Shown here one piece after another: positions 3,257 to 56,953 of a stretch of DNA of 64,000 nucleotides (the stretch's first letter is position 1; each line of letters starts with the position of its first letter). Both the position numbers and the translations under genes were made by a program. The notes below the pieces were generated by a model that saw only the letters and a list, made by a program, of their open reading frames with translations, made no database searches and was not told the origin of the DNA. The DNA comes from an uncultured Bacteroidales bacterium (lineage in GTDB: Bacteria > Bacteroidota > Bacteroidia > Bacteroidales > Paludibacteraceae). The stretch covers positions 1 to 64,000 of the forward strand of contig ONND01000002.1 of NCBI GenBank assembly GCA_900319105.1, read 5' to 3'.

Positions 3257-4315
3257 TTATTGCTTGTTATCCTCAAAAGGTATTGTAGGCAGGACGAAAC
3301 GATCGAAGTCTGATTGGTAGAGTGCGTCTTGTACGACACGGTATTTTTCAAATTCTGTTTCCGCTTTCATTTGTGCCAGTTCAGCTGAAATCTTTCCTGA
3401 GTCTTGCAGGATCTCTCTATCCCATAGTTTCAGGAAACTATTCAGTCTTTCTTCCCAATCTGCCATTGTCATGGGGATGTGTCTCATTGCTTGTAATTCT
3501 GCAAAGTCCAGATATGCAGATACAATACGTTCCAATTGTTGGAGTTCATCCTCGGTAAGATAATTTTTGGCGATAGAAACATCGTATTTATGAATTTTAC
3601 CGTTAGGAGCACCTTCCCAAGATGTCAAGCCCATGTGTTCTTTTTCCGCATCAGCCCTCTCGTAGATCAGTTCCGCAGCCGTGTGTTGGTGAATGGAATA
3701 ATGCATTTTGTTTTGCACCGCAGCGAAGAAGCGTTGTGTAGCTGTTGCTATAGGGTCATAGTCAATGCTTGTAGCGTATATGTCTGTGATTTTTTGGTAG
3801 AAACGCCGTTCGGAGATGCGTATCTCACGTACCTTCTCCAATTGTTTCTCGAAGTAGTCTTTGGTGAGGATTGTTCCACCATTTTTCAATCGTTCGGAGT
3901 CCATCACCCATCCCTGGATTGTGTAGTCTTTCACAATGGCGTTAGCCCATTTTCGGAATTGTACAGCGCGCTCGTTATTTACCTTAAAGCCCACAGCGAT
4001 AATCATTTGCAGGTTATAGTGCTTAACATCGCGTGCAACCTGCCGATTACCTTCCGTTTGAACTATCCGGAAATTCCGGATGGTTGCCTCTTCGGATAAC
4101 TCATTGTCGCTGTATATCTTTTGAATATGCTCATTTATTGTGCGTACATCTACACTATATAATTCCGCCATTAGGCGTTGTGTAAGCCAGAGGTTTTCAT
4201 CTTGGTAGCGTAATTCCACGCTGTCCGGTTGGTCACCTATAGAGCTGGCGAAAGTGAGATACTCCGCTGCGGAAGAACGGATAGTTATTTCCTGTGTTTT
4301 CTTTTTTGTTGCCAT
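3257..4315 (-). CDS. RhuM family protein
   Basis: The 352-residue protein starts at 4315 (MATKKKTQEITIRSSAAEYL). The ATG at 4363 lies inside the previous gene. It matches the RhuM family (virulence RhuM, PF13310) along its length: VELRYQDENLWLTQRLMAELY with a winged-helix-like N-terminus, then RTINEHIQKIYSDNEL, the NLQMIIAVGFKVNNERAVQFRKWAN block, and the C-terminal LDFAELQA region. The N-terminal part of this family resembles phage antirepressor (KilA/Bro-type) DNA-binding domains. RhuM genes commonly sit inside restriction-modification operons as here. The molecular role is not established. Confidence 0.85.
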   Translation of the reverse strand: MATKKKTQEITIRSSAAEYLTFASSIGDQPDSVELRYQDENLWLTQRLMAELYSVDVRTINEHIQKIYSDNELSEEATIRNFRIVQTEGNRQVARDVKHYNLQMIIAVGFKVNNERAVQFRKWANAIVKDYTIQGWVMDSERLKNGGTILTKDYFEKQLEKVREIRISERRFYQKITDIYATSIDYDPIATATQRFFAAVQNKMHYSIHQHTAAELIYERADAEKEHMGLTSWEGAPNGKIHKYDVSIAKNYLTEDELQQLERIVSAYLDFAELQAMRHIPMTMADWEERLNSFLKLWDREILQDSGKISAELAQMKAETEFEKYRVVQDALYQSDFDRFVLPTIPFEDNKQ

Positions 4316-4319
4316 AGTT

Positions 4320-5396
4320 TTAATCTTGGGTTGTTTGTGCGCCGATGGCTCCGGGGGAGACATTGTCTATATGGGCACCGACATGCTTGTCTCCGGCGAT
4401 GTAATCGCCTTGGACGCTATATGTGGTACTGTTTAATGACGAAGCAGAGGAATGGAGATTGTCCATTTTCCATTTTAAATAATCCATGAAATATTGTATC
4501 ATACGCAGTACTTCAGGTCTGCCTCTGTACCATCGATCATGGTATGCTTGTGAGCCACGAAAATCTTCAAACATAAGTTCCCTATTAACCACGCTACTTT
4601 CTTGATTATACAATTCCTGATATAAGTCATCAATCGTAGGGTCAAGTAGTAGCGAGTTGTCTTCTTCCATCTCTACTTCTATTTGCGCGATGCGCAAGCG
4701 AATATATTCCTCATAGCATGCATTACGCAACTTACGTTTGATATCAGTAAATGCTAATGGAGCAGATGTGTTCATCTTACCAGTGACTAAGTACTGCCGG
4801 AAACTCTCTGCAAGGAATAGGTTGCGGCTAAAATCATAGATGTTATCGAACGGTAGTTGGTTGTAATTGCGGTTGCAATAGAGGAAATACTCAATTACAG
4901 GGTCTTTTTTCCCGTTGCTAACCGTTTTATGGATTTCCGAGGCTAACGCTACAAGATCTTTGCCTTCTACGTATTTATCAGACCAGAGCAGTGCCATTTC
5001 ATTAAGACCTTTTCCTCCATTTACATCATCGTATGTGTGTGGCATCTGTGCGCCCTGCATTAGCACTAATCCGCGCAGATGAATATTGACCATTATGAGG
5101 CACTCTGCGTCTGCATAAAAGGAATCGCTTGCTTCTTTAGTAGGAAAGCATTGCGGCGCAAGGTCTTGCCATTTGCTGAGTATGTCGGCTCGTCTGGAGA
5201 AATCATCTATTTCGTTAAGCAACGCCCACGCGCAGCCAATATAAGAGATAGGTGGATTCATCAGCCCAATCATCTTGACGATGTCGGAGAGATATGGTTT
5301 CCAATCCACCGTTTCTAATCGAGTTTCGTCTCGATTGATTGCACGAAGAATATTCAGTTCTTCAGGAACTTCCCTATGTGCGGTTCGGTTACTCAT
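4320..5396 (-). CDS. Uncharacterised defence-island protein with C-terminal tag (358 aa)
   Basis: The protein is soluble, mainly helical, with Cys and Trp scattered and no catalytic signature that I recognise. Its last 34 residues (about 325-358) are TTYSVQGDYIAGDKHVGAHI followed by DNVSPGAIGAQTTQD: the same motif as the end of the upstream neighbour (5389-6234) and the start of the protein at 2584-3252. It overlaps the upstream gene by 8 bases and is 4 bases from RhuM, so all are co-translated. The repeated tag suggests a shared docking or oligomerisation element. This is inference. Confidence 0.7.
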   Translation of the reverse strand: MSNRTAHREVPEELNILRAINRDETRLETVDWKPYLSDIVKMIGLMNPPISYIGCAWALLNEIDDFSRRADILSKWQDLAPQCFPTKEASDSFYADAECLIMVNIHLRGLVLMQGAQMPHTYDDVNGGKGLNEMALLWSDKYVEGKDLVALASEIHKTVSNGKKDPVIEYFLYCNRNYNQLPFDNIYDFSRNLFLAESFRQYLVTGKMNTSAPLAFTDIKRKLRNACYEEYIRLRIAQIEVEMEEDNSLLLDPTIDDLYQELYNQESSVVNRELMFEDFRGSQAYHDRWYRGRPEVLRMIQYFMDYLKWKMDNLHSSASSLNSTTYSVQGDYIAGDKHVGAHIDNVSPGAIGAQTTQD

Positions 5397-6234
5397 GTAT
5401 TTCTTGCACTCCTATAGCTTTCGACGCGACACTATCAATCTGGGTCCCAACATGTTTGTCTCCATATATAGTATCTCCATTGTGTACAATTTTAGTACCC
5501 ATTGCATCTATCTTCTTCAACGTAGCCGGTGTATTCCATCCTTCTTTGTGTAGCATCATGTCATAGAGCATTGAACGTATTACAGATGCACTTTTCGGGC
5601 TTTTTGTTGTGACATATTCGATAATCTCTTCCAACGAAAGTACGAACTCTATTTTTTCTTTTTTAGCTAACTTCCGTTGTTCAGCCTTCTGCTTGGCTAA
5701 TTCCTTTTTATGGACTTCAATAGCAGCTTTATGCGAGTCACGAAGAAGTTTCAATGTCGGGAGCACTTGTTTTTTACCTCCTCCATAAATATAATCAGCG
5801 TTTTTAATGAGATGTGATAGAATGTCAACTCGCATTTCAGGATCGCTAATACTCTCTATAAAGGTCTTAAGAGCTTTTATATTATAAAATACCTTAAAGT
5901 CAGACCAGTCAACAAAAGCAGGAGACTTAATCCACCCATCGTCAAACATTTTTTCCAGCCCCCAATATGCTATGGTATTTTCAGTATAGCCTTGTTGCTG
6001 CATCCACAACTTGAATTTGTCTTCATAATAGTCGAAAGAGTAGTAGCGGATGCACTTTTCTCTGGTAGCTAGAGAATATTCATTACAATCACAATCTTCG
6101 TGTAACCATTCTTCACGAAGTTCTGTAAAATCTTCTATTATAGGATTCCCCTCATCATCTTCGGAAGGATAATGTTTCCAATCTTTAAGGATATCTTTCC
6201 TTCTTAGTTTTTGTTGCGTTTTTTCTTCATCCAT
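5389..6234 (-). CDS. Uncharacterised defence-island protein with C-terminal tag (281 aa)
   Basis: Starts MDEEKTQQKLRRKDILKDWK. The N-terminal half is acidic with a CDCNEYSLATREKC cluster. The middle (about residues 150-200) is a charged helix rich in Lys, HKKELAKQKAEQRKLAKKEK, likely coiled coil. The last 35 residues carry the tag HNGDTIYGDKHVGTQIDSVA...AIGVQ. It lies 43 bases after the zinc-hook ATPase gene and overlaps the next gene by 8 bases. No enzyme family is recognised. Confidence 0.7.
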   Translation of the reverse strand: MDEEKTQQKLRRKDILKDWKHYPSEDDEGNPIIEDFTELREEWLHEDCDCNEYSLATREKCIRYYSFDYYEDKFKLWMQQQGYTENTIAYWGLEKMFDDGWIKSPAFVDWSDFKVFYNIKALKTFIESISDPEMRVDILSHLIKNADYIYGGGKKQVLPTLKLLRDSHKAAIEVHKKELAKQKAEQRKLAKKEKIEFVLSLEEIIEYVTTKSPKSASVIRSMLYDMMLHKEGWNTPATLKKIDAMGTKIVHNGDTIYGDKHVGTQIDSVASKAIGVQEIHE

Positions 6235-6277
6235 TGCTTTTTTATATTTTTGTCATGCTATTGTTATGCTCTCTTCT

Positions 6278-8878
6278 TTATTCATAGCCATTGGCTTTTT
6301 TCCAATTCTTAGCATTTTGAACAAAATCATCTTTCCACGTTTTATAACTCGTAATATCATTATGTATATCAGTTTCTGTTAAAGTTTTGGAAACCGTTTC
6401 AGGAGAACCATCATGAATTACTTCAGAATATTTGCTATATAAACCTAATAAGTAATCAATATCAGTTTTAGAGACAAGAATCATATTCGCTAAATCACTC
6501 CTTTTGAAACTAATATTTTTGCTAAAACGCGAAATAGCATTATTGACAAGAATATCTTCTACAGTTCGTTCCAGTAATTGTCGCATCTTATCTTTCAAAT
6601 CATTTATGATACTATTCTTTTTGTCTATTTGTGTAATGTTTAGGCTTTTTATTTCATTAAGTCCCGACATTATTGTATCTATCCGTTCTTGCACATTCTT
6701 TACTAAGTAAGGTATTTCATCTGATACAATACCGCAATGATTTTCTACTGAATTTAAACATGTAACATAACATTCGCAAGAGTGTTCTTTCTTATAGGCA
6801 TCCTTTAATATTCTTAAGAAGTATAAATCATGCGTAAAAACAATAACTTGTTGGTTGACGGAGAGGTGTACTATTATTTTTGCGACAGCTTCTCTATAAT
6901 CCATATCAAGTGAATTAATTGGATCGTCAAAAACTATCGTGTTATTAGAATTATCAACATTACTCTCTGCTAAGAAATTTGCAATTGCAACAATCTTCTG
7001 TTCTCCTTCGCTAAACACTTCAGTTATATTTTCTGAAATGGAATTGAAACCGCATTTTTGATAAGTTATCCCAGATGTAGTACGCGTTTTCTTCAATCCC
7101 ATTTTTGTAGCTATTTGAGGGTTCATTATATTCAAATACTGCAAGAATAATGTTTGTTGAGCTTCTATGGCATTTGTTTCCAGTAACTCTCCCATTTTCG
7201 TAGAAATACTACGTGTATTAAGAGCTGATAAACATTCACCATATTTCTTTTTTAACGTATATTCATCATAGTATTTTAGAATCGAATCCCGCTTTTGTAC
7301 TAGAAGATTTAGTGCTTCTAATTCAAGATACTCTTTTTCTATTTTTGAGCGATTCGCTAAAACTTCTTCGTTCGTTTTAATCCGTTGGCTAATTTTTTTT
7401 ATTTCTTCTAGTAACAATGCCGATAAACTAGGAGTAACAGCACATGAAGTAATATCTTCGTCTTTATTATCAATAAGGTTTAAAACATTATCCTTAGCAT
7501 TAATAAGTTGTTCAATATATTCGGAGATGGTTGTACGAAAAATAGGATTATCTTCAACTAACTCATTTATTAATTCTTTTGTAATCAATTCATTCGGAAT
7601 ATTATCATATCTCTTGCGCTCTTGTTCCAACTTCCCTTTTGCCAAATCCAATGCAGTGCTTGTAGTGTCTTGAATGTAAGACTCAAATTTTTGTAATCTA
7701 GTTTTTGCATCAGTGGATAATGGTTGTTGACACAACATACAAAACTCTACGCCATCTTTAGAACCGATAGGGTGATCTGTATGTATTTCGGAAATTGCAT
7801 AATTCCTCGCAGCTTCCCATAAACTCTTCCATGCTTGACTCTCTATAGAGAAAACAAGTCCTTCTTCATATGACTCTCTTGCAATTTTGTTTGCCGCTTC
7901 TTTTGTTAATAAGTCATGAATTAAAGTGGCAATATTTTGGAGATTTTCAATATCGAATAGTTTGTTCCACTCATTAATCTTTACTAATAAAGAGTTATAC
8001 CTATTCAATTTGTGTACCAAATTCTTATTAGTCTCTGCCGGATTAGCGTCTTTTAATGACGTCTCTAATGAAAGCTTATGATTAATTTGTTCTGTAGTAA
8101 GTGAAAGTTTTGCCTCAATGTCAGCCCGGTTGAGTGTTTCTAAATTTTGATACCATCTGTAAGTTTCTGTATTTCTATATTTTTCAGGAAGTTCATCTTT
8201 CTCTTTGACGAGTAATGATGCATCTTTATTTATTAGACATGATAGTTTTTCATAAAGTTGTAATAAACGTTCCAACACTTCTATTCCGGCTGGTTTGTAT
8301 TCGGCGGGATTATCTTGATTTAAATATATACCAGCACACTTTGTATCAAATATATATACTGAATTAAGGTTCTCGTCTGTTGGTTGCCCTTCTTGCCACA
8401 CAAAATTAGTTTCGACATTTCCTTTCGTATATTTAATAGAAACGGATTGAACCTCAGTACTAGCAGTATATACATTTTTCTTCAATACGACTCCATTATC
8501 ACGACTCCAACACAATTTTTTTAATATTTTAGAGAAACTTGATTTTCCTGAGCCGTTTTTTCCATATACAATTGTCAAACTATCCAGCGAGAAATTTAAC
8601 GCGGTTGATTCATAAAGAGCTGATATGTTGTGCGGGGAAGAAATTTGCTTTAATCGAACTTGATTAGTAGATGTTATGATCGGCGGAATATCTGCATTTG
8701 TAGCAGGAGATGGTACTAATGTTATCCCTTCAAATCCGTGTTCTTTCTTCAATAATTCTTTGATCTCTTGAATATCTTGCGCGGTCAATACAGTACAATG
8801 TAAAATGCGCCTAATTGCATCCTTGATAAAAGGAGCTTTATTATTTGACCATGTAATAATATCAGAATATACAGCCAT
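6278..8878 (-). CDS. Zinc-hook SMC/RloC-like ATPase (AAA_13 type)
   Basis: An 866-residue ABC-type ATPase. It has Walker A GKNGSGKSS at 106-114, a coiled-coil region interrupted by a zinc-hook CMLC (Cys380, Cys383), the signature-like FSEGEQKIVAIANF from about 622, Walker B IVFDDPINSLD near 648-658 and an H-loop VFTHD about 20 residues later. This layout is that of the AAA_13/RloC group, in which RloC couples a DNA-damage-sensing ATPase to a tRNA anticodon nuclease. The C-terminal region after 700 is helical with RSDLAN and SEVIHDGSPE. I cannot show that the nuclease residues are present. The gene is very A+T-rich and linked to a restriction operon, a typical setting for this family. Confidence 0.85.
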   Translation of the reverse strand: MAVYSDIITWSNNKAPFIKDAIRRILHCTVLTAQDIQEIKELLKKEHGFEGITLVPSPATNADIPPIITSTNQVRLKQISSPHNISALYESTALNFSLDSLTIVYGKNGSGKSSFSKILKKLCWSRDNGVVLKKNVYTASTEVQSVSIKYTKGNVETNFVWQEGQPTDENLNSVYIFDTKCAGIYLNQDNPAEYKPAGIEVLERLLQLYEKLSCLINKDASLLVKEKDELPEKYRNTETYRWYQNLETLNRADIEAKLSLTTEQINHKLSLETSLKDANPAETNKNLVHKLNRYNSLLVKINEWNKLFDIENLQNIATLIHDLLTKEAANKIARESYEEGLVFSIESQAWKSLWEAARNYAISEIHTDHPIGSKDGVEFCMLCQQPLSTDAKTRLQKFESYIQDTTSTALDLAKGKLEQERKRYDNIPNELITKELINELVEDNPIFRTTISEYIEQLINAKDNVLNLIDNKDEDITSCAVTPSLSALLLEEIKKISQRIKTNEEVLANRSKIEKEYLELEALNLLVQKRDSILKYYDEYTLKKKYGECLSALNTRSISTKMGELLETNAIEAQQTLFLQYLNIMNPQIATKMGLKKTRTTSGITYQKCGFNSISENITEVFSEGEQKIVAIANFLAESNVDNSNNTIVFDDPINSLDMDYREAVAKIIVHLSVNQQVIVFTHDLYFLRILKDAYKKEHSCECYVTCLNSVENHCGIVSDEIPYLVKNVQERIDTIMSGLNEIKSLNITQIDKKNSIINDLKDKMRQLLERTVEDILVNNAISRFSKNISFKRSDLANMILVSKTDIDYLLGLYSKYSEVIHDGSPETVSKTLTETDIHNDITSYKTWKDDFVQNAKNWKKANGYE

Positions 8879-8942
8879 AGTGTTTCGTTAATTTTATTTT
8901 CCAGATTTAATGATAATGTTATTTAGTTGTTAGTCACAATAG

Positions 8943-9980
8943 TTAATGATTATCGTCTTGATTAGCTCGTTTTAATGGGTTATTACTTGTTTTATTTGTC
9001 TTTATGGTGCGCAATTGCATCATCAGTTGCGTTCCTCTTTCTGTTAAATTCCAAAATAAAGCCATATCTCCTTTCGTGGTTTGCGAATAGGTAACATTTA
9101 TTAAGCCAAGAGCCATAAATTGTATTTTTATAGTTTGAAAATCTTGGCTATTCATATATAATGTATCGCTCGTAGGCTTCCCTACATAACTATATGCTAT
9201 ACTTTTTAATAAGGATTCAACCCTTTGATCATTCGGACAGTCTAACAGATAAGGTGCAATGCTCATGAACAACTGTTTCCATGTGACCTCGCATTCCCAA
9301 TTTTGCGATGTCACTTCTTGTCTCCAAATATGAGTTTTTGTCCCTCGAATACGTACTTTTTCGTCAATACCAGCAATATCACTATATGGTTTGTACTCCC
9401 CATGTTTTCTTTTGTATTCTCTTAACTCAGCAACTTCTTTGCGTAATTGGCTTAGTTCAACGAGATTCTCACTGGAAAGAACCTGATTGGCGCGCACCCA
9501 TCCAATTGCAGGGTGTTCACGCATTTCTTTGTTTAGACTTATAATGACTGAAGAAACCAAATCTTGCTTATTGTCCCACTGGCGAACAAGCCTTCCATTT
9601 TGTACCTTAGCTTTGAAGAGAGATAGTTTTTGAAGTTTTGTAAAATCAGTATCTTTATTATTTTCTTCTATTGCATTCTCATTACGAACAAAAGCCAGAA
9701 CCCGAATACCTTTGCTAACGGCATAATCATATTCCTTTTCGGTATAACTAATGCCGTCAGGAGCCAAAGAGCCATATCTGCCCGCTACAATCACAACGTA
9801 ATAATCGCAGTTGTCAATGATGCGTTTAATAAAGTTAAATTGTTCCTCATCCGTAGCAGGAAACATCTCCATTCCTGATGGAATATGTTCAGACTCTTGT
9901 ACTGCAGTTAAAACCGCTTGACGTTCCTCTTTTAAGTCAACAAATGTGGAACTTACAAATATTTGATATTTCTTATCCAT
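8943..9980 (-). CDS. DUF4062 (TIR-like) protein
   Basis: The N-terminal 150 residues match DUF4062: KYQIFVSSTFVDLKEERQAV, PSGMEMFPATDEEQFNFIKR, CDYYVVIVAGRYGS and GISYTEKEYDYA. This is a TIR/SLOG-like Rossmann fold found in conflict systems, often joined to ATPases. After a basic helix (LRKEVAELREYKRKHGEYK) the C-terminal part (about 210-330) looks like a winged-helix module with WKQLFMSIAPYLLD and LGLINVTYSQTTKGDMALFW. It starts 3 bases after the specificity-subunit gene. A sensor or effector role is inferred, and the enzymatic activity is not known. Confidence 0.85.
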   Translation of the reverse strand: MDKKYQIFVSSTFVDLKEERQAVLTAVQESEHIPSGMEMFPATDEEQFNFIKRIIDNCDYYVVIVAGRYGSLAPDGISYTEKEYDYAVSKGIRVLAFVRNENAIEENNKDTDFTKLQKLSLFKAKVQNGRLVRQWDNKQDLVSSVIISLNKEMREHPAIGWVRANQVLSSENLVELSQLRKEVAELREYKRKHGEYKPYSDIAGIDEKVRIRGTKTHIWRQEVTSQNWECEVTWKQLFMSIAPYLLDCPNDQRVESLLKSIAYSYVGKPTSDTLYMNSQDFQTIKIQFMALGLINVTYSQTTKGDMALFWNLTERGTQLMMQLRTIKTNKTSNNPLKRANQDDNH

Positions 9981-9983
9981 CTC

Positions 9984-11678
9984 TTATAACACGCACTTAA
10001 AGATGCCTATTGTTTTGTAGTCGCCAAACTCATCTAATTCGATTGGTTCAAAATCAGGATTGAGAGGAAGAAGTTCTACTTTGGAATGTTGCCAACTGTC
10101 TTCTGTATTTGATTTCTCACTATGGTAGCGTTTGATGGTATAGCGACCACCATAGGCATCATCGTACTCACTACTTTGCGTGAGAACAATCTCACCATTA
10201 CGTGAACCGGCATTGTACCACTCGAAGATACAAATATCGCCATCTTTGATTTTGGGTAGCATGGAATCGCCCTTTGCATGAATCGCAAAATGGCGTTTGG
10301 GGTCAGGAGTAAATCCTAATTCGGAAGCATCTATCCATCCTTCCTCTTCCGGCAGTTGACCATCTTCGAAATATCCACAAGCAGCGCGGAGCGTATAAAG
10401 AGGTATAAATCCGGGTTGGTATTCGGGGTGGATAAGGGTAATCTTTTGCTCAACTTGTTGTTCCTCTTCTGCTTCAATGACTTGTTGGGTAGCTTCGAGA
10501 TTGCGCGCGGTGTATTTGGCGACGTCGGCTATAACAATTTTTTGTACTGCTGCAATAATTTGCTCCATAGAAGCAAGGTCTGGAGTTTTCCCATCAGCAC
10601 AAACGGGAAGCATGATAGTGTCTTTGTTGATCTTTGTTTTGCTGACACTATCTCCCCAGGTGTACTTGTGACCAAGACTTTTCTTTACGCATGTTACAAG
10701 GGATAATAGATTGAGTCTTGTAGGGGTGTAGTCTTTGAGGTATAATGCAATATTGTGGCTATCATTGGAGAAGAAATCATCCTTTTGGTAGCTAACCACG
10801 AATGTTTTACCACCAATAAATACACAATTACCTTGTTCTAGCAAATCTTTGTTATGCGATATATAGCCACAGATACCATTATTCTCTGCACTTGCACAGA
10901 GATATGGAGTGGTTCCCGAACCAAGTTTTATATTGGAAGCCAGGATGTTATGTGTATTGCGTATGGAGAAAACTTCTGTTATAGGGAAAGGCTTCCAATG
11001 AAGGGCAGAGAGTCGATCTAGTGCGGTTTTGTCGGCAGAAGTCAGTTCGTAGTTGTTCAAGCCGGTAGCCACGAGATAAGCCTCGAGTTCGCGCAAGCGC
11101 GCCCTCTCGAGTTCGCGCAAGCGCGCCCTCTCGAGTTCGCGCACTATAAATTCAAAATCTATTTTTCCTTTGGACTTTTCAGGTAATTGAATAATACAAT
11201 CTTTAGCAACTTTCCAATGTCGAGCATATCCAAGGTTTGGTATTTGTTTTTGCCATACAGCAATGAAAAATAGTAAACAATTAACATTGTCTGTACATGG
11301 TAAGAGCACCTTTACATTGTCAAGTACAGAGAAACTTTTTTGAACAACGTTGAAAGTACGCGTATGGTCTCCAAAAGTTATATAAATAGGATGTTGATAG
11401 TCACATATAAAATCTGGGTTGTCTGTATAGCCAATAACGCCTCCATTAGTTGATTCAGAAGAATAAACAGGGAATTCTGCCTTAGTGAAAGTTTGTTCTT
11501 TTGATAACATCCGAGAAATTTTCTGAATCTTAAAAAGGTTCGAAACGCTATACTCGCCCCACTTGACTTTGCGAAGCTGAAGGTCAAGTGGGGCTAAAAT
11601 TTTCCCAGGCTGTCCTCCTCCTTTTTGTGTTTCAGGAGGTTTGAAACTTCCCACGCAAGATAATCTGCTACGGTACAA
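9984..11678 (-). CDS. Restriction specificity subunit fused to an S24 (LexA/UmuD-type) protease
   Basis: Two target-recognition domains (about 38-180 and 225-370) are joined by a conserved helix. The second helix leads into a linker of Glu/Gln (about 393-412) and then a complete S24 domain (about 418-564). That domain has the nucleophile in AKGDSMLPKIKDGD (Ser472), the general base in YTIKRY (Lys516), and ACGYFEDG (Cys434-Gly435) in the place of the UmuD/LexA self-cleavage bond. The first helix is built from the repeat ELERARLR in about 2.5 copies. Specificity subunits normally end after the second helix, so the S24 fusion is unusual. The start is uncertain: the ATG at 11678 overlaps the upstream gene by 85 bases, and no later ATG precedes the first recognition domain. 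Confidence 0.85.
   Translation of the reverse strand: MYRSRLSCVGSFKPPETQKGGGQPGKILAPLDLQLRKVKWGEYSVSNLFKIQKISRMLSKEQTFTKAEFPVYSSESTNGGVIGYTDNPDFICDYQHPIYITFGDHTRTFNVVQKSFSVLDNVKVLLPCTDNVNCLLFFIAVWQKQIPNLGYARHWKVAKDCIIQLPEKSKGKIDFEFIVRELERARLRELERARLRELEAYLVATGLNNYELTSADKTALDRLSALHWKPFPITEVFSIRNTHNILASNIKLGSGTTPYLCASAENNGICGYISHNKDLLEQGNCVFIGGKTFVVSYQKDDFFSNDSHNIALYLKDYTPTRLNLLSLVTCVKKSLGHKYTWGDSVSKTKINKDTIMLPVCADGKTPDLASMEQIIAAVQKIVIADVAKYTARNLEATQQVIEAEEEQQVEQKITLIHPEYQPGFIPLYTLRAACGYFEDGQLPEEEGWIDASELGFTPDPKRHFAIHAKGDSMLPKIKDGDICIFEWYNAGSRNGEIVLTQSSEYDDAYGGRYTIKRYHSEKSNTEDSWQHSKVELLPLNPDFEPIELDEFGDYKTIGIFKCVL
11082..11142. repeat. 24-bp tandem repeat in the specificity gene
   Basis: The unit CTCGAGTTCGCGCAAGCGCG+CCCT occurs twice exactly (11082-11105 and 11106-11129) and then for 13 more bases (11130-11142). 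In the protein it encodes the 8-residue unit ELERARLR between the two recognition domains. The unit is a multiple of 3, so copy-number changes stay in frame. In EcoR124-type enzymes such a change alters the spacing between the two half-sites. Confidence 0.95.
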
Positions 11679-13645
11679 CGGAAATCATCAATAGTAGGGC
11701 AAGTATCTATCTTTTTATGTTTACTGAATGTCCAATCGTCCCCATTCAAAGTGATAGTGTCTTCGATATAATCTTCCGGTTTGAGGTATGATTGTGTTAC
11801 AGCCCGATTAAGAATAAGGTTGACGACTTCGTCATATCTCTCTTTGGCATGGTCATTGTCGCTGAGATTGACACTATTGCTTGCCTTTTTGCGATTGGCT
11901 CTTTTGTATCCATCTTCAGCGAAATTTATAAACTTCACTTTTTGCTGAACATTGTGTGGATGTCCTACTTCGAAAAGGTATATGGCCGTTTGTACCGATG
12001 CTTTACCAATAAATAATTTTTCCGTCATGTGTATAGACGCAAGCAGTGTGCTATGTTTCAGAATACGTTGGGCGTAATCTTTTGCTTGTCCCGCACCTGC
12101 ATTTTCTCGGATAAGCACAGCAGCATATCCAGAACTCATTTTGTCTAGCGCCTTTTCTACAAAGATGAGTCCGCTACCGGGAGCAGAGTATGGCGGATTA
12201 AGGAGGAAAACATTTGCAGGGAAGTCTTTGTCCTTCTCGTCTTTAATGGCTTGGTTATATTTGCCGTTGTATTGGAGTGAATCTTCATTAAGAATGTGCG
12301 AAGAACCATCGCCCATGAGAATCATATTCAGAACAGCCAACATATAGATATCCGGGCGCAATTCGATACCTAATAATTGGAAGAGTTTGATTTGATCTTC
12401 TTTCAGCCTTAATTCTTTCGGACTCTTGATTTGTTCTCTTGCGTCTTGAATCATTAATTTCATAGCCGCAACGAGGAAGCCTCCCGATCCTGCGGTATAG
12501 TCCCAAACGTAAGAGTCCATATTTACGCGGCAAAGACGAGCCATAAACTCTGTGACATATCGAGGCGTTAGCACTACATCGTTCTTATCATCGCCAGGTC
12601 TGAAAGGAAGCCATGAGTAGAATTCATTAAACATGGCACCTGTAAAATCAAGATGTTTCGCAGATTGGAAGATGGGCATAATATCATCCACAACGCACAT
12701 GTACACCGATTTAATGGGGCTTGCACCTTTAATGGGAGTGTACATGTTCTTGTCCCGGATAATCTGCTCAAAGAGTTGATTAATAGTGTGTTTCTTCTCT
12801 TCAGGAAGTTGTTTGTGCTCAAGAAATTCTTTTATCTTATTGAGCATTTTTACTCCGTCATTTGAGTATGTTCCACTATCACCGTTCAATTCTTCTACGC
12901 GGAGAGGGGCAACATTTTCTGCCCCCAACCCTGCCATAATCATACCACATACCAACTGCACACGGTTTTCTGCTTTGATGTTAAGGTTGTCGTGCATTTG
13001 TTGGTTCAGATCTTTGAGAACTTTGACAATCTGATTCTCAAAATCAACCGTTTGCAGTTCCTGCTCCTCTTCGGATAACTGCAAGTTATGGATTGCAGTT
13101 GCAAGTTGAGGCAAATGTTCTTTGGCAAAAAACGAAAGGTCAGAATACTCACCAATCTTTTTAGGAATAAGCATGTTCTCTTGCGATACAAAGTACACGC
13201 CTAATTCAGTATGTAGTTTCCCGTCCGCAGAAGAGTAGCCATTATAACCAATAGCTATTACCTCTTTGTATGATTTGGTATATTTGATTATACTCTCGGC
13301 ATAGTGAAGAGCACCGTTTACAGCAAAATTTTTGATGGAAGCGTAATCTTTGACACCTCTATCAGTATATAGCGACAATGTCCCAGAGTCCGTTCGTTTC
13401 TCCAGTTTGCCTTTTGTGCCTTTCACTTCTATCATTACCGGCATAAAAGAATGATCGGGCATTTGAAGCAGAATCTTTATATCCGGAATATTCTTGCCTT
13501 TTCCTCCAGATTTGGATTCCGCTTTCGAAAGCGCGGCTTCGATCTCGTCATTGACATTATCCGTCTTGAACTTGAAATCAACACCTGCCTGTTGTAGTTG
13601 CTGTTTGGCAGTTAATTCTACTTGCTCTTCTATGCTATGTGCCAT
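11594..13645 (-). CDS. BcgI-like restriction-methylation subunit (nuclease + N6-adenine methyltransferase)
   Basis: The 683-residue protein starts at 13645 (MAHSIEEQVELTAKQQLQQA); the earlier ATG at 13744 would run into the previous gene. The N-terminal domain holds a PD-(D/E)XK nuclease core, PDIKILL (Asp55) and MIEVKGTKG (Glu73, Lys75). It is followed by a gamma-class adenine methyltransferase with motif I DYTAGSGGF (382-390) and motif IV NPPY (483-486), plus the HsdM-type N-terminal helical region. One chain carrying cleavage and methylation next to a separate specificity gene is the layout of BcgI-type (type IIB) systems, and no hsdR gene is present. It would cut DNA outside its site on one or both sides. 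Confidence 0.8.
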   Translation of the reverse strand: MAHSIEEQVELTAKQQLQQAGVDFKFKTDNVNDEIEAALSKAESKSGGKGKNIPDIKILLQMPDHSFMPVMIEVKGTKGKLEKRTDSGTLSLYTDRGVKDYASIKNFAVNGALHYAESIIKYTKSYKEVIAIGYNGYSSADGKLHTELGVYFVSQENMLIPKKIGEYSDLSFFAKEHLPQLATAIHNLQLSEEEQELQTVDFENQIVKVLKDLNQQMHDNLNIKAENRVQLVCGMIMAGLGAENVAPLRVEELNGDSGTYSNDGVKMLNKIKEFLEHKQLPEEKKHTINQLFEQIIRDKNMYTPIKGASPIKSVYMCVVDDIMPIFQSAKHLDFTGAMFNEFYSWLPFRPGDDKNDVVLTPRYVTEFMARLCRVNMDSYVWDYTAGSGGFLVAAMKLMIQDAREQIKSPKELRLKEDQIKLFQLLGIELRPDIYMLAVLNMILMGDGSSHILNEDSLQYNGKYNQAIKDEKDKDFPANVFLLNPPYSAPGSGLIFVEKALDKMSSGYAAVLIRENAGAGQAKDYAQRILKHSTLLASIHMTEKLFIGKASVQTAIYLFEVGHPHNVQQKVKFINFAEDGYKRANRKKASNSVNLSDNDHAKERYDEVVNLILNRAVTQSYLKPEDYIEDTITLNGDDWTFSKHKKIDTCPTIDDFRCTVADYLAWEVSNLLKHKKEEDSLGKF

Positions 13646-13661
13646 AATGGTATATTTTTGC

Positions 13662-14504
13662 TTATTTCTTTCTATATACTTGATCCAAGGTCTTGCCGTC
13701 GGCATCTTTCCATCTTGTCCAACCGTTGGAACTGCCACCGACAATCATTGCTGCGGCTGCGGAAGGAGATGGAAAAGTATAATCTGCTTTGAGAGTAATC
13801 TTACCTTTTGATGTGGAGCAATACGTTTTGATAAAAGATTTTCTTTTCTCCTGTGAATTGGGTTTGAGCGAATTACATTCGCCTAAACGAAGTTCACTAC
13901 CTGCTAATACAACAAACTCTTCACTCTCGCACAGATAACCAACGGCATCGCTTCCGGCTCGCTTGCAATAGAACAGATGCTTCTCTTTTGCTACTCTTGC
14001 TTTTGTTTGCTTTTGACAGAAGATGTCGCAACCGATAAACTGCGCAAGCGTTTCTACATAACGGAAGAACTTATCAGTTTTACCTTTCAACATCACATTC
14101 ATGTGCGGTTGCTTGGGACTTTGCGTGTTCTCAGAGAAATCAAAACGCTGAAGATCCAGTGCTTTATTGTAAGCGAGATATTCCAGATATTGCACTTCCG
14201 TCTTGCTGAGCGTATCCTCGTTGCTACCTAAAAACACGAGCACTTCATCCCAGAAATCTTTCTTGATCATGTGCTGCGCAATGCGTTTTACGAAATCGTC
14301 TGTTTCGCCTATATAAGCCTTGCGTGTATCTCTGTTTAGAAGTATGTACAAAGCAGGTTTCTGTAAATCGCCGTTGAAATCATGCATGAAGGCAGAGTCG
14401 TTGCGCTTGATATTGTATAACTTGCACATACAATCATCCATGCTCACGATACGCGAGCCGTTCAAATCATCATTGTGTAGATAGGTATAGATAGTGGTTG
14501 CCAT
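13662..14504 (-). CDS. GIY-YIG nuclease with DUF4357
   Basis: The GIY-YIG core lies at about residues 50-135: PALYILLNRDTRKAYIGETD, VKRIAQHM, DFWDEVLVFL and a Glu in SKTEVQYLE. The C-terminal 45 residues (ADYTFPSPSAAAAMIVGGSS, NGWTRWKDADGKTLDQVYR) are DUF4357, which is often attached to GIY-YIG proteins in restriction loci. The canonical GIY/YIG triads appear as LYI and YIG. It sits 16 bases upstream of the BcgI-like gene. It may cleave DNA as an accessory nuclease; the target is unknown. Confidence 0.85.
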   Translation of the reverse strand: MATTIYTYLHNDDLNGSRIVSMDDCMCKLYNIKRNDSAFMHDFNGDLQKPALYILLNRDTRKAYIGETDDFVKRIAQHMIKKDFWDEVLVFLGSNEDTLSKTEVQYLEYLAYNKALDLQRFDFSENTQSPKQPHMNVMLKGKTDKFFRYVETLAQFIGCDIFCQKQTKARVAKEKHLFYCKRAGSDAVGYLCESEEFVVLAGSELRLGECNSLKPNSQEKRKSFIKTYCSTSKGKITLKADYTFPSPSAAAAMIVGGSSNGWTRWKDADGKTLDQVYRKK

Positions 14505-14558
14505 ATCTTAGTTATTCATATTGTATTACAATTATGATTGGTGTTTTTGATCAATAAA

Positions 14559-14930
14559 TCATTGTACATATGCAAATGACTGTGGTGCCACCTGGAGATT
14601 ATAATCGCTCAGGCGGCGTGCCTTTGCGTATCGTTTGGTATTCCTAATCTTAATGGCATATGCCTTTTCCTTATTGGCAAAGTATGACAGATAAAAGTCA
14701 CGTGTGATGCCTGCATATCGTGCAGTTTGCTCCCATATCGTATCAACATCATCATTTAAGATGCTATCAATAGTAAATTCGCCAATAACTTGTTGTACAG
14801 GCGAAGAAGCATAGACAATAACCGTTTGCACATCCGTGTTCTTAAAGATACTCTTGCGGAACTCGAACTTCTTAGTTCCATCGAATATCTTTTCGGCAAA
14901 CTCAGGTTTAATAGATAATAAAACTGTCAT
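14559..14930 (-). CDS. ASCH-domain protein
   Basis: At 123 residues it is a single-domain ASCH (PUA-like) protein: VLLSIKPEFAEKIFDGTKKF with the following EFRK, then VQTVIVYASSPVQQVIGEFT. ASCH domains bind or process RNA, and EcYqfB-type members deacetylate modified cytidine. Its start overlaps the end of the PIN gene by 23 bases, so the two are probably translated together. With the PIN partner it could form a toxin-antitoxin-like pair. Confidence 0.8.
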   Translation of the reverse strand: MTVLLSIKPEFAEKIFDGTKKFEFRKSIFKNTDVQTVIVYASSPVQQVIGEFTIDSILNDDVDTIWEQTARYAGITRDFYLSYFANKEKAYAIKIRNTKRYAKARRLSDYNLQVAPQSFAYVQ

Positions 14931-16413
14931 CGCTTTTTGTTTCTTTTATGATTGTTTTAAATTGTTCTGTTGTAATCGGTTTAAAGCCACGAGGCGCGTC
15001 ATTCACCCCTAATAAAACTCCAAGATCAATCAATTCTTTCATGTTGATTCGATGTGGGAAGGAGTAGAGATAGAGGAACTTAACAACAAATGGTTTATCG
15101 CTTCTGTATCTCCACATCTCTTGCAGTTCTTTTTCAGGAAAGACGCTGCCTTTTCTGCAGTATTTGATAAACTCGTCTTCTGTCGCAAAATCTTTTTTAA
15201 GTTCCTCCACTATTCCAATGGTAGTGACAACACTCTTGTAATAGCCTCCCGTGCGGTAGAAAATCAATAAATCTCCTTTGTTCGGATGCGGTTCAAAAGC
15301 ACGCGACACATACACTTTTCCTATTCCGTTTCGATGTGGGAAATCCTCAACAAATTCCTCCGGAGACTCAGTATTAAGAATCGAGTCCGGAAGCAGTTCA
15401 GTATGGTAATCGGGATAGATCGGGACCAAATATGCATTTCGGGAAGCCTCAACGAACGGATAAGTAAATCGCAAATTGCTTCTTATATCTGTATTCGGAT
15501 GAAAATCCCGTACATAAACCATTTCTCCACCTTTCATGCCCCAATACACAAACCCCCATTGTTCCAATAAGGCTATCAAACGGCGTTGTTCATCGCGTTT
15601 ATCAAAGATAGTGACATATATTTCTTCCACATGTTTTTTTAGTGCATTGTCAAATATGATTTTCAAGAAACGCTCTCCCAGACGGAATCCATTGTTGATG
15701 ACCTTAAAAGTTCCGATTTTAAGTCGCTTCTTCGGGGGCAATACAGGCGCGACATTCGAATAGTCTTCTTCTGTTCCTTCTACTTTCAAATACAAGAAGG
15801 ACAACAGCATCCCATTATTGGAGTTAATGGTGATATATGCTTCATCATCATATTTTTTAATAAACCATTTGTCGAATCCGGGGTAATCTTCTTTAAGACT
15901 GTCAAAGAATGGATCGTCAAGATTGATTTTGCCGAATTTAAGCTTTTGAACATTGAGCACTTTATAATCGACCAAATCCGGGTGCTCTGCAAAAACTTTC
16001 TCAAGGAAGGAATCAATGGTATATACTTTATCCGCAATATTTAGTACTTCCGCTTTTTTGTGGATTTTCTTATCTTCCGTTATTAAAATATCTACACGAC
16101 CGACATACACTTCATTCAACAAAATCGTATCATTCCGGTCGTTGTCGTTAGCATCCATTCTCTCAGAAACTTGGAGAACTTCATGTTGCAAGGGAGACGG
16201 GATGTCAATTATCTCATAACTTTGCAATTTTGTCATGAAGGCCGATACTGTTTCTTGGTTCGGGTTCTTCTTGATTTCTTCGATAGTAACAGAATGAACG
16301 CATTTCGTGTATTTTCCTCGATCCAACCAACGGTATAAAATGCCGATATCCTGCGAAACAACTTTATTCGCCTCGCGGTGGATGATAATATTGGTGTCTA
16401 ATAGTGCTTTCAT
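14908..16413 (-). CDS. PIN nuclease - acetyltransferase-like - PUA-like multidomain protein
   Basis: Residues 1-130 form a PIN domain with the acidic set Asp6 (LLDTNIIIH), Glu45, Asp95 and Asp114 (ILITEDKKI), so an active metal-dependent RNase is expected. The middle (about 215-320) looks like a GNAT fold, with GTFKVINNGFRLGERFLKII, KHVEEIYVTIFDK and LLEQWGFVYWG. The C-terminal part (about 330-470) looks like an EVE/ASCH-type PUA fold, with NKGDLLIFYRTGGYYKSVV and TIGIVEEL. Fusions of PIN and GNAT to PUA-like domains are known in prokaryotic conflict systems. It overlaps the upstream membrane-protein gene by 4 bases. Confidence 0.8.
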   Translation of the reverse strand: MKALLDTNIIIHREANKVVSQDIGILYRWLDRGKYTKCVHSVTIEEIKKNPNQETVSAFMTKLQSYEIIDIPSPLQHEVLQVSERMDANDNDRNDTILLNEVYVGRVDILITEDKKIHKKAEVLNIADKVYTIDSFLEKVFAEHPDLVDYKVLNVQKLKFGKINLDDPFFDSLKEDYPGFDKWFIKKYDDEAYITINSNNGMLLSFLYLKVEGTEEDYSNVAPVLPPKKRLKIGTFKVINNGFRLGERFLKIIFDNALKKHVEEIYVTIFDKRDEQRRLIALLEQWGFVYWGMKGGEMVYVRDFHPNTDIRSNLRFTYPFVEASRNAYLVPIYPDYHTELLPDSILNTESPEEFVEDFPHRNGIGKVYVSRAFEPHPNKGDLLIFYRTGGYYKSVVTTIGIVEELKKDFATEDEFIKYCRKGSVFPEKELQEMWRYRSDKPFVVKFLYLYSFPHRINMKELIDLGVLLGVNDAPRGFKPITTEQFKTIIKETKSDDSFIIY

Positions 16414-55912: not shown

Positions 55913-56953
55913 TCATTTACCCATCTTCGCCATAACGGCTTCCAGACCGAGTTCTTTGATCTTCTCGCCGATCTTAGCCTCGAGTTCTTCGCATAGGTCG
56001 GGGTTGTCATTCAGAACTGCTTTGACATTGTCGCGACCCTGACCCAGTTTGGTATCGCCGTATGAGAAGAACGAACCGCTCTTCTTGATGACATCGGTTG
56101 CTACGGCGAAATCCAGAATCTCACCGATCTTCGAGATGCCCTCGTTGAACATCAGGTCAAACTCGGCTTTCTTGAATGGAGGCGCCACTTTGTTCTTCAC
56201 CACTTTGACGCGCACTTGGTTACCTTTGATCTGCTCGCCGTCCTTGATCTGACCCGTCTTGCGGATGTCGAGACGTACCGAAGCGTAGAACTTGAGGGCG
56301 TTACCGCCGGTGGTCGTCTCGGGGTTGCCGAACATCACGCCGATCTTCTCGCGGAGCTGGTTGATGAAGATGACGGTAGTACCGGTCTTGTTCACCGAGG
56401 CGGTCATCTTACGCAGCGCCTGAGACATCAAACGAGCCTGCAGACCCACTTTGTTATCGCCCATGTCACCGGCAATCTCTGCTTTCGGAGTCAAGGCGGC
56501 TACGGAGTCAATGACAATCAGATCGACCGCTGCTGAACGGATCAGTTCGTCTGCTATATCGAGTGCCTGCTCGCCGCTGTCCGGCTGAGCGATCAGTAAC
56601 TCCGTGATGTTCACGCCGAGTTTCTCTGCGTAGAAACGGTCGAACGCGTGCTCGGCATCAATGATGGCGGCAATGCCACCTGCTTTCTGCACCTCCGCCA
56701 TCGCGTGGATAGCAAGGGTCGTCTTACCGGATGACTCCGGACCGTAAATCTCAATAATCCTGCCTTTCGGATAACCGCCTACCCCTAACGCGTAGTTCAA
56801 TCCCAGACTTCCGGTCGGGATCACCGGCACGTTCTCGATATTCTCGTCGCCTAATTTCATGATGGCACCTTTGCCATATTCTTTGTCAATCTTTGCCATC
56901 GCAGCCTGCAACGCTTTGAGCTTATCCGCCGATGGAGCTTGTTTCTCTGCCAT
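55913..56953 (-). CDS. recA: Recombinase RecA
   Basis: 346 residues. Walker A GPESSGKT (about 73-80), the [20 protein letters not shown] Walker B region, L1/L2 loops ([20 protein letters not shown]) and a short basic C-terminus. It forms filaments on single-stranded DNA and triggers self-cleavage of LexA/UmuD-type S24 proteins. That is relevant to the S24 domain fused to the specificity subunit at 9984. Confidence 0.98.

Follow-up and report, generated by a model that had tools for sequence, protein, structure and literature searches.

Why should the subunit of a restriction enzyme that selects the DNA target end in a domain of the kind with which LexA and UmuD cut themselves? The question is raised by a gene at 9984-11678, on the minus strand, in 64,000 nucleotides (nt) of DNA from an uncultured Bacteroidales bacterium of the Paludibacteraceae (assembly GCA_900319105.1, contig ONND01000002.1, positions 1 to 64,000; hereafter the window). 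A sequence-only reading of this DNA had described the gene product as a specificity (S) subunit fused to an S24 domain. Comparison with other genomes indicates that the S24 tail is a portable module that ends many kinds of restriction nuclease, and that the phenomenon is, to judge from these loci, much wider than one gene. The tail itself is very probably competent for self-cleavage. The best explanation, in which we place even confidence, is that RecA triggers the self-cleavage, which would expose a degron and act as a built-in form of restriction alleviation. The parts of the protein on which the argument depends are as follows.

9984..11678, minus strand: S subunit with C-terminal S24 tail; one open frame of 564 amino acids (aa) from a TTG start, the true start being uncertain
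10593..10997, minus strand: second target-recognition domain, the best Methylase_S stretch (Pfam), residues 228-362; the frame holds one more Methylase_S stretch
10449..10577, minus strand: long helix (residues 368-410) and then a low-confidence linker (408-414), N-terminal to the S24 domain, from the structure model
9987..10427, minus strand: S24 autoprotease module, the portable tail, residues 418-564, from Pfam, profile searches and the fold model
10374..10379, minus strand: predicted scissile bond Cys434-Gly435, aligned with the Cys-Gly of UmuD (Cys434 codon 10377-10379, Gly435 codon 10374-10376)
10263..10265, minus strand: catalytic Ser472 (GDSM), from alignment and conservation
10131..10133, minus strand: catalytic Lys516 (YTIKRY), from alignment and conservation

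The fusion described by the sequence-only reading is borne out, as both parts are found by Pfam in one open frame: Methylase_S in two stretches (whole-protein E 4e-14) and Peptidase_S24 at residues 444-559 (E 9.6e-12, 45.1 bits against a cut-off of 23.3). The S part matches PADLOC type II specificity profiles of 341 and 405 positions, and the S24 tail is a C-terminal extension that these profiles do not have. With the full protein as query, phmmer matched no PDB sequence, and the full-length model reached a predicted template modelling score (pTM) of 0.45, too low to place the tail against the S body. In that model the first ~29 residues, which overlap the gene of the partner methylase (M gene), have predicted local distance difference test (pLDDT) values of 25-33; they may not be translated. 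Two repeat structures were also seen in the S gene. Between the recognition domains, 11082-11143 holds two exact 24-nt tandem repeats and a partial third (14 nt) that encode RELERARL repeats; slippage in spacer repeats at this place can alter the recognised spacing, as in EcoR124. Where the M and S genes meet, within the S frame, there is a 15-nt inverted repeat that is 93% complementary around a 9-nt loop (11556-11594).

Does the tail keep what self-cleavage requires? The residues named by the sequence-only reading (Cys434-Gly435, Ser472 and Lys516) were numbered exactly, and the fold around them is that of the LexA and UmuD proteases. With the module model (pLDDT 83.5, pTM 0.80), all 13 Foldseek hits at E <= 0.001 were LexA, lambda CI or UmuD, several of them RecA-bound, and LexA was matched at E 1.8e-6. 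The best solved match to the module sequence profile was RecA-bound UmuD (8gmt_B, 2.7e-9), with Cys-Gly aligned on Cys-Gly. Model confidence is lowest at residues 19-22 (<50), directly C-terminal to the cut site, which is what a mobile loop would be expected to show.

Conservation was counted over 93 non-identical rows from 111, a set that includes 3 fragments or partial rows and a few proteins that are not fusions (L064, L065, L127, L144). The sequence-only reading had pointed to loss of the Ser or Lys in homologues as a possible weakness; both are kept in nearly all. The Ser is present in every row that has a letter there (91/91) and the Lys in 91 of 92, the sole exception being L065, a 246-aa non-fusion. 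Immediately before the predicted bond, P1 is Cys in 71/90 rows and Ala in 19/90; after it, P1' is Gly in 85/90, the remainder being 3 Ser, 1 His and 1 Thr. The distance from P1' to the Ser is 34-39 residues in 84 of the 85 rows with Gly, and 42 in one. The two residues upstream are also nearly constant, with Ala at P3 in 85/91 tail rows and at P2 in 89/91. In a narrower alignment of 85 of the 93 rows (A2, which leaves out the fragments, L064, L065, L112, L126 and L062), Gly, Ser, Met, Ile, Lys, Tyr and Leu are each invariant (85/85). The Ser, the Lys and the Ala/Cys-Gly bond persist down to ~32-45% identity to the window module. Three features of peptidase family S24 are thus present: a Ser-Lys dyad (GxSM; Y-T/S-I/V/L-K), an Ala/Cys-Gly bond at a LexA/UmuD-like distance and a LexA/UmuD fold. 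It could be supposed that the tail serves only for dimerisation or for docking on RecA, its proteolysis being unused; S24 domains do dimerise. With the Ser, the Lys and the bond kept in nearly all modules, this is extremely unlikely.

How far does the tail extend beyond this gene? The last 180 residues of the window frame were searched in 300 genomes of the family (E <= 0.001) and matched 59. Besides the window, 27 places in 26 of these genomes lie in open frames of 514-1,924 aa; the weak matches cover residues ~72-176 of the query, mostly in short frames, and several coincide with matches to the UmuD family model over its cut-off. Within the family the tail is carried by S subunits, by two kinds of HsdR and by type ISP enzymes, as well as by one Schlafen-group-3 helicase, one type II nuclease (PADLOC PDLC03488, E 4.4e-75; its HNH match is sub-threshold) and a protein that could not be assigned.

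An alignment of 20 modules (A1), scanned against species genomes, found at least 375 relatives, of which the best 79 loci were kept. As that alignment was built from fusions, this locus sample favours fusions, and a sample of 395 genomes of the phylum is the fairer one. In the phylum sample 27 genomes matched at E <= 1e-8, and the matches split into two sets. The first consists of 18 matches at E < 1e-30, namely the window, 15 frames of 724-1,217 aa and 2 shorter frames (143 and 246 aa). The second consists of 9 matches at 4.7e-10 to 8.9e-9 in frames of 111-282 aa. Tailed proteins therefore appear to form a distinct, recognisable group, the 15 long frames being known by their length, not by host class. 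The 79 loci are, by record title, mostly Bacteroidota. Tailed named isolates include Prevotella aff. ruminicola Tc2-24, Xylanibacter brevis ATCC 19188, Parabacteroides faecalis, Bacteroides oleiciplenus and Pedobacter suwonensis, and the complete genome of Bacteroidales F22 is also among the tail-bearing records. Metagenome-assembled records with a tail are assigned to Acidobacteria, Nitrospira, Planctomycetota, Elusimicrobia, Omnitrophica, Lentisphaerae, Proteobacteria and a Lachnospiraceae bacterium. The named tailed isolates are Bacteroidota; the loci outside this phylum are all metagenome-assembled by title, so binning errors are possible there. In a plasmid collection the window tail matched one Halomonas record (31% identity); a related tail (L094) had no match in a phage collection.

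To which proteins is the tail attached? Host parts of the 78 locus proteins and the window were clustered by BLAST, and representatives were scanned with Pfam and other profiles. The largest class is that of Schlafen-group-3 helicases (26 of 79 hosts; four were scanned, with a GIY-YIG match in one, L131). Methylase_S proteins account for 13, including the window and three single-chain enzymes, HsdR and Res-like (ResIII) proteins for 12 each, and type ISP enzymes for 6. One host each is of the AlwI, LlaJI, MutH/Sau3AI, DUF4420 and Eco57I-type IIG kinds, the DUF4420 host being MzaD-like at 40.1 bits, below the cut-off of 420. Two class labels pass NCBI cut-offs: Sau3AI for L136 (409.9 against 300 bits) and HsdR for L089 (570.1 against 284.55 bits). 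L060 is LlaJI by Pfam, and L061 and L062 were given the same label by likeness. The others are an HTH (helix-turn-helix) repressor (L127), a free-standing 151-aa protein (L144), a fragment (L108) and two unassigned proteins (L082, L112); these are not restriction hosts or are unclear. An oddity limited to specificity subunits was considered and set aside, the tail being found on many unrelated nuclease classes.

The module is in an open frame at 78/79 loci and ends at most 7 aa from the C-terminus in 76/79 rows and at most 16 aa in 2; in L112 a further 90 aa follow. Broken tails are few (L086 and L047/L095): L086 has two fragments and L095 a lone 76-residue match, the out-of-frame tail remnant lying 3' of the S gene in L047. 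Searching all frames of at least 80 aa in the 79 loci with the module profile found no locus with two complete modules. A scan of neighbours at seven type II or type III-like loci (AlwI, LlaJI, Sau3AI/MutH, the PADLOC type II nuclease and three Res-like; L107, L103, L136, L059, L105, L084 and L137) found that the nuclease is tailed and that the adjacent methyltransferase has no S24 match.

Three of the less usual loci can be described here. At L082:2731-9438 a SNF2 helicase, a 330-aa protein and a 1018-aa protein with sigma-70 regions 2 and 4 accompany a 395-aa S24-tailed protein whose first residues resemble, by eye, those of the sigma-like protein. At L112:4103-9705 an Eco57I/ResIII enzyme (1362 aa) precedes a protein of 505 aa whose S24 module is not terminal but has 90 aa on its C-terminal side. 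The HTH repressor at L127:5017-5799, in a Deltaproteobacteria metagenome-assembled genome, carries a similar module with an AAAG cut site as in Res-like tails; its module is possibly the source, or an offshoot, of the tails.

Is the fusion genuine, and does the tail move? The sequence-only reading had named a frameshift or an assembly join between the two parts as a danger, and had suggested a search for other such fusions. The same fusion of S and S24 was found, without a frameshift, in L034, L035/L068, L036/L069, L038/L079, L039/L078, L050/L096 and L067, all from other assemblies. The ratio of nonsynonymous to synonymous substitution rates (dN/dS) in the tail is 0.10-0.18 in 4 of 15 pairs, those with dS <1; the other 11 pairs are saturated or >1.6. 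Because the fusions recur in other assemblies and the tail is under purifying selection, they are neither chance nor an assembly join. A chance S24 match, an assembly join and a pseudogene were all rejected on these grounds and on the conserved catalytic residues.

The tail is, at the same time, optional. Close homologues of the window M gene (E < 1e-100) number 13 genes in 12 other genomes, and the S genes beside them are tailed in 6 cases, complete and tailless in 5, an out-of-frame remnant in one and cut by the contig end in one. One genome (G139) has a tailed and a tailless copy. For 10 M genes that are more distant, the surrounding DNA that was fetched showed no S24 match. That the tail is needed for the enzyme as such was rejected, given the complete tailless close homologues.

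DNA identity in 60-nt bins suggests exchange as well. Between L034 and L036 the S part is 98-100% identical and the tails 59-85%, whereas between the window and L034 it is the tail that is close (77-100%, with 6/7 bins >=90%) and the S part that is distant (60-92%). Recombination, as read from these bins, separates the tail from the body at or near the cut-site block (L034/L036). A tree of 84 tails (9 of the 93 rows, without a host label, were omitted), built on 145 columns and with long branches and 19 of 81 inner branches open, requires 23 changes of host class. The minimum possible is 7 and the mean of shuffled labels 51.5, and none of 200 shuffles gave a number as low. HsdR alone requires 8 changes, at least 6 of them forced by well-supported branches, while type ISP tails form one clade. 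For example, an S subunit (L074) and a single-chain enzyme (L072) have tails that are 91% identical, and the tails of an HsdR (L109) and another single-chain enzyme (L070) share 84% identity. These data also bear on the view that cleavage is constitutive maturation, or answers a signal other than RecA, so that the domain is a processing device and not a damage sensor. There would be no obvious reason for a folded protease tail to keep moving between enzymes if it merely processed them, and its cut-site class, fold and spacing match those of RecA-responsive members; this view is very unlikely.

What, then, would the tail do? RecA filaments induce the self-cleavage of LexA, CI and UmuD at Ala/Cys-Gly, and the N-terminal part of cleaved LexA ends in -VAA and is degraded by ClpXP. 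By analogy, the following sequence of events is proposed. In the undamaged cell the tail would be intact and restriction working. When a RecA filament forms on single-stranded DNA, as a result of damage, stalled forks or incoming single strands, the tail would dock on it and cut itself at the Cys434-Gly435 bond. This would release the S24 domain and leave a specificity subunit that ends ...LRAAC. This exposed end of small residues (-AAC or, elsewhere, -AAA) would be a C-terminal degron analogous to the -VAA of LexA, and ClpXP or a similar protease would remove the subunit, so that restriction is off while the chromosome holds unmodified, repaired DNA. The same module would act likewise on the many other restriction nucleases. 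Both RecA and ClpX are encoded in the source genome, recA (PF00154, E 7.7e-138) lying at 56132-56917 on the minus strand of the window. Cleavage, its trigger, degradation and the direction of the switch (off) are all inferred. RecA is the likely trigger; that the main purpose is to switch restriction off through the exposed end is a claim on which we are evenly divided.

The residues before the cut favour the proposed degron. Among 28 UmuD-like proteins of relatives (L216-L243), all of which fit a cut-site pattern of A, C or S before G-F, the residue at P1 is Ala, that at P2 is His, Gln, Lys, Arg or another, and that at P3 is Ile, Leu or Val; in none of them is either P2 or P3 Ala. The protease fold itself thus does not require Ala-Ala, and this suggests selection on the exposed end. 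Conservation of Ala-Ala before the cut in the tails suggests that it is kept for that end, as a degron would need.

UmuD also offers the opposite model, in which the uncut tail inhibits the enzyme, for example by S24-S24 dimerisation, and RecA-triggered cleavage turns the restriction enzyme or nuclease on in response to single-stranded DNA derived from phage or damage. UmuD, the closest solved sequence match, is indeed activated by cleavage. The tailless homologues are complete, so removal of the tail need not inactivate the body, and an induced activity is conceivable for the Schlafen-group-3 helicases. However, turning restriction on during repair, when the chromosome is unmodified, would be self-harm, and the model does not account for the AA[C/A] end, which the tails keep and UmuD-like proteins lack. 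We consider activation rather unlikely.

Where the tail sits on the cutting polypeptide of a separable system, its cleavage fits loss of restriction with methylation continuing. The same placement, with the methylase untouched in the scanned separable systems, would suit control of establishment, in which cleavage occurs mainly when a system enters as single-stranded DNA by conjugation or transformation, and the SOS response holds the cutting subunit off until the chromosome is methylated. Free recombination of tail and body and the frequent change of host class agree with this. Sequence cannot separate it from damage control, though; it is of no help for S subunits, which methylation also needs, and a relative of the tail was seen in a single plasmid record. 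Establishment control as the main role is quite improbable.

Several points weigh against damage-triggered switch-off as well. It is possible that the Ala at P3 and P2 serve the substrate pocket of the protease itself, and a terminal Cys differs from the textbook -LAA degron. The five of 90 rows with Ser, His or Thr at P1' also depart from the expected bond. S subunits and single-chain enzymes would, on cleavage, lose methylation too, which could itself be dangerous. With 26 of 79 hosts being Schlafen-group-3 helicases, restriction alleviation may be the wrong frame. No other S24 protein was found in the source assembly (90.8% complete), so nothing there shows a co-protease role of RecA; of 61 genomes searched, 27 have UmuD-like proteins that pass the family cut-off, and the source genome belongs to the 61 but not to the 27. 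Since no second S24 domain was seen in the assembly, the tail would there act as a damage sensor on its own. Plasmid-induced alleviation of EcoKI is reported to be independent of SOS and of LexA cleavage, as seen in a lexA1 strain (PMC11109961). On the other side, a study of Bacteroidetes describes a LexA-like SOS response run by S24 repressors, so a working RecA co-protease is plausible in the phylum (PMC8565304).

The system to which the window S subunit belongs is defined by its partner.

11594..13744, minus strand: partner nuclease-methylase subunit, 716 aa from TTG, the start probably lying further downstream; an N6-methylase with no S24 match

The partner matches the PADLOC type IIG profile PDLC03616 (REase_MTase_IIG) at E 4.7e-181 and the 637-position profile PDLC03602 at E 1.2e-50; from their lengths, we take PDLC03602 and PDLC03591 to correspond to BcgIA and BcgIB. 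Its nuclease part is assigned from the type IIG profile and from VRR_NUC, which matches at 20.9 bits, below its threshold of 23.8. A nuclease-methylase subunit with a separate S subunit that has two recognition domains is the arrangement of a BcgI-like type IIB restriction-modification system. As the partner fits the nuclease-methylase profile, the system is likened to BcgI and not to type I; it resembles BcgI in having two subunits with the nuclease fused to the methylase. HSDR_N was not found by Pfam among 10 window proteins scanned (3257-16413). A type I HsdS, the label given by the sequence-only reading, was therefore rejected in favour of a BcgI-B-like S subunit, no HsdR being present among the scanned neighbours and the partner being of type IIG profile. 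In one tailed system (L038:6026-8082) the M gene is split into two overlapping frames.

Downstream of the S gene on the same strand, a DUF4062 gene (8943-9980) starts 3 nt past the S stop codon. A 99% identical copy lies beside the S-S24 gene in L034; comparison with 12 further tailed loci, a few of them with short flanks, gave no match. On either side (13662-16413 and 3257-8878) are neighbours typical of a defence island: GIY-YIG/DUF4357 (PDC-S14), ASCH (PDC-M11B), PIN-EVE (PDC-M11A), an AAA_13 ATPase (PDC-S06) and RhuM. L069, another locus with a tailed S subunit, encodes the same ASCH and PIN-EVE proteins at 100% and 99.6% identity.

How does the tailed subunit compare with described systems? 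It shares with LexA the fold, the Ser-Lys dyad and the position of the Ala/Cys-Gly bond before the Ser, and its Ala-Ala before the cut recalls the exposed -VAA end of LexA. LexA differs in having an N-terminal DNA-binding HTH and in being a transcription repressor; the N-terminal part of the window protein is Methylase_S. With UmuD it shares a Cys-Gly cut site after a P-L-Y/F motif in addition to the best sequence match, whereas UmuD is free-standing and serves a polymerase, and the window protein scores below the cut-off of the UmuD family model NF007621 (22.6 bits against 110). The non-canonical LexA proteins of Bacteroidetes have, like the tail, an S24 domain with Ala-Gly and Ser-Lys, act in the DNA-damage response and come from the same phylum; they are HTH repressors unfused to enzymes, and the part of the text available mentions no S24-tailed restriction enzyme (PMC8565304). 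BcgI-type IIB enzymes (A and B subunits) have the same division into a nuclease-methylase subunit and a separate two-domain S subunit, but type II S profiles lack the tail. A parallel to the proposal is restriction alleviation in E. coli, in which the HsdR of EcoKI is degraded by ClpXP (PMC11109961). In EcoKI and EcoA, as in the proposal, the restricting subunit is removed by proteolysis; there HsdR becomes available during translocation, without LexA-type cleavage, whereas the trigger proposed here would be built into the enzyme (PMC11109961). A preprint uses a LexA inhibitor and does not contain the term S24 (PMC13192584). A search for work on the RecA-LexA interface yielded no paper. No description of S24-tailed restriction enzymes was found in open-licence PMC full texts, the scope searched (subscription papers fall outside it), in agreement with the statement of the sequence-only reading that it knew of no such system.

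That reading had gone further and proposed that damage could release or inactivate specificity. The part of this that stands is an intact, conserved S24 domain of the LexA/UmuD type on an S subunit; its focus on specificity subunits is too narrow. With so many kinds of nuclease carrying the tail, a general switch that acts on whichever polypeptide restricts is a likelier role than the release of specificity. We suggest tentatively, at slightly less than even confidence, that a portable LexA-type tail has been acquired many times by type I, II, III-like, ISP and other systems as a general SOS-operated switch, through which RecA filaments would cause the cutting subunit to be removed post-translationally, and that this is an undescribed regulatory class in the control of immunity. 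How a cell avoids restricting its own DNA after damage has been worked out for a few type I enzymes of E. coli. If the proposal is true, the module would offer a direct answer that extends to several types of restriction enzyme and comes with named residues; it would also be a possible second route to restriction alleviation besides translocation-coupled ClpXP. LexA/UmuD-type domains would then control enzymes of immunity too, beyond transcription and polymerases.

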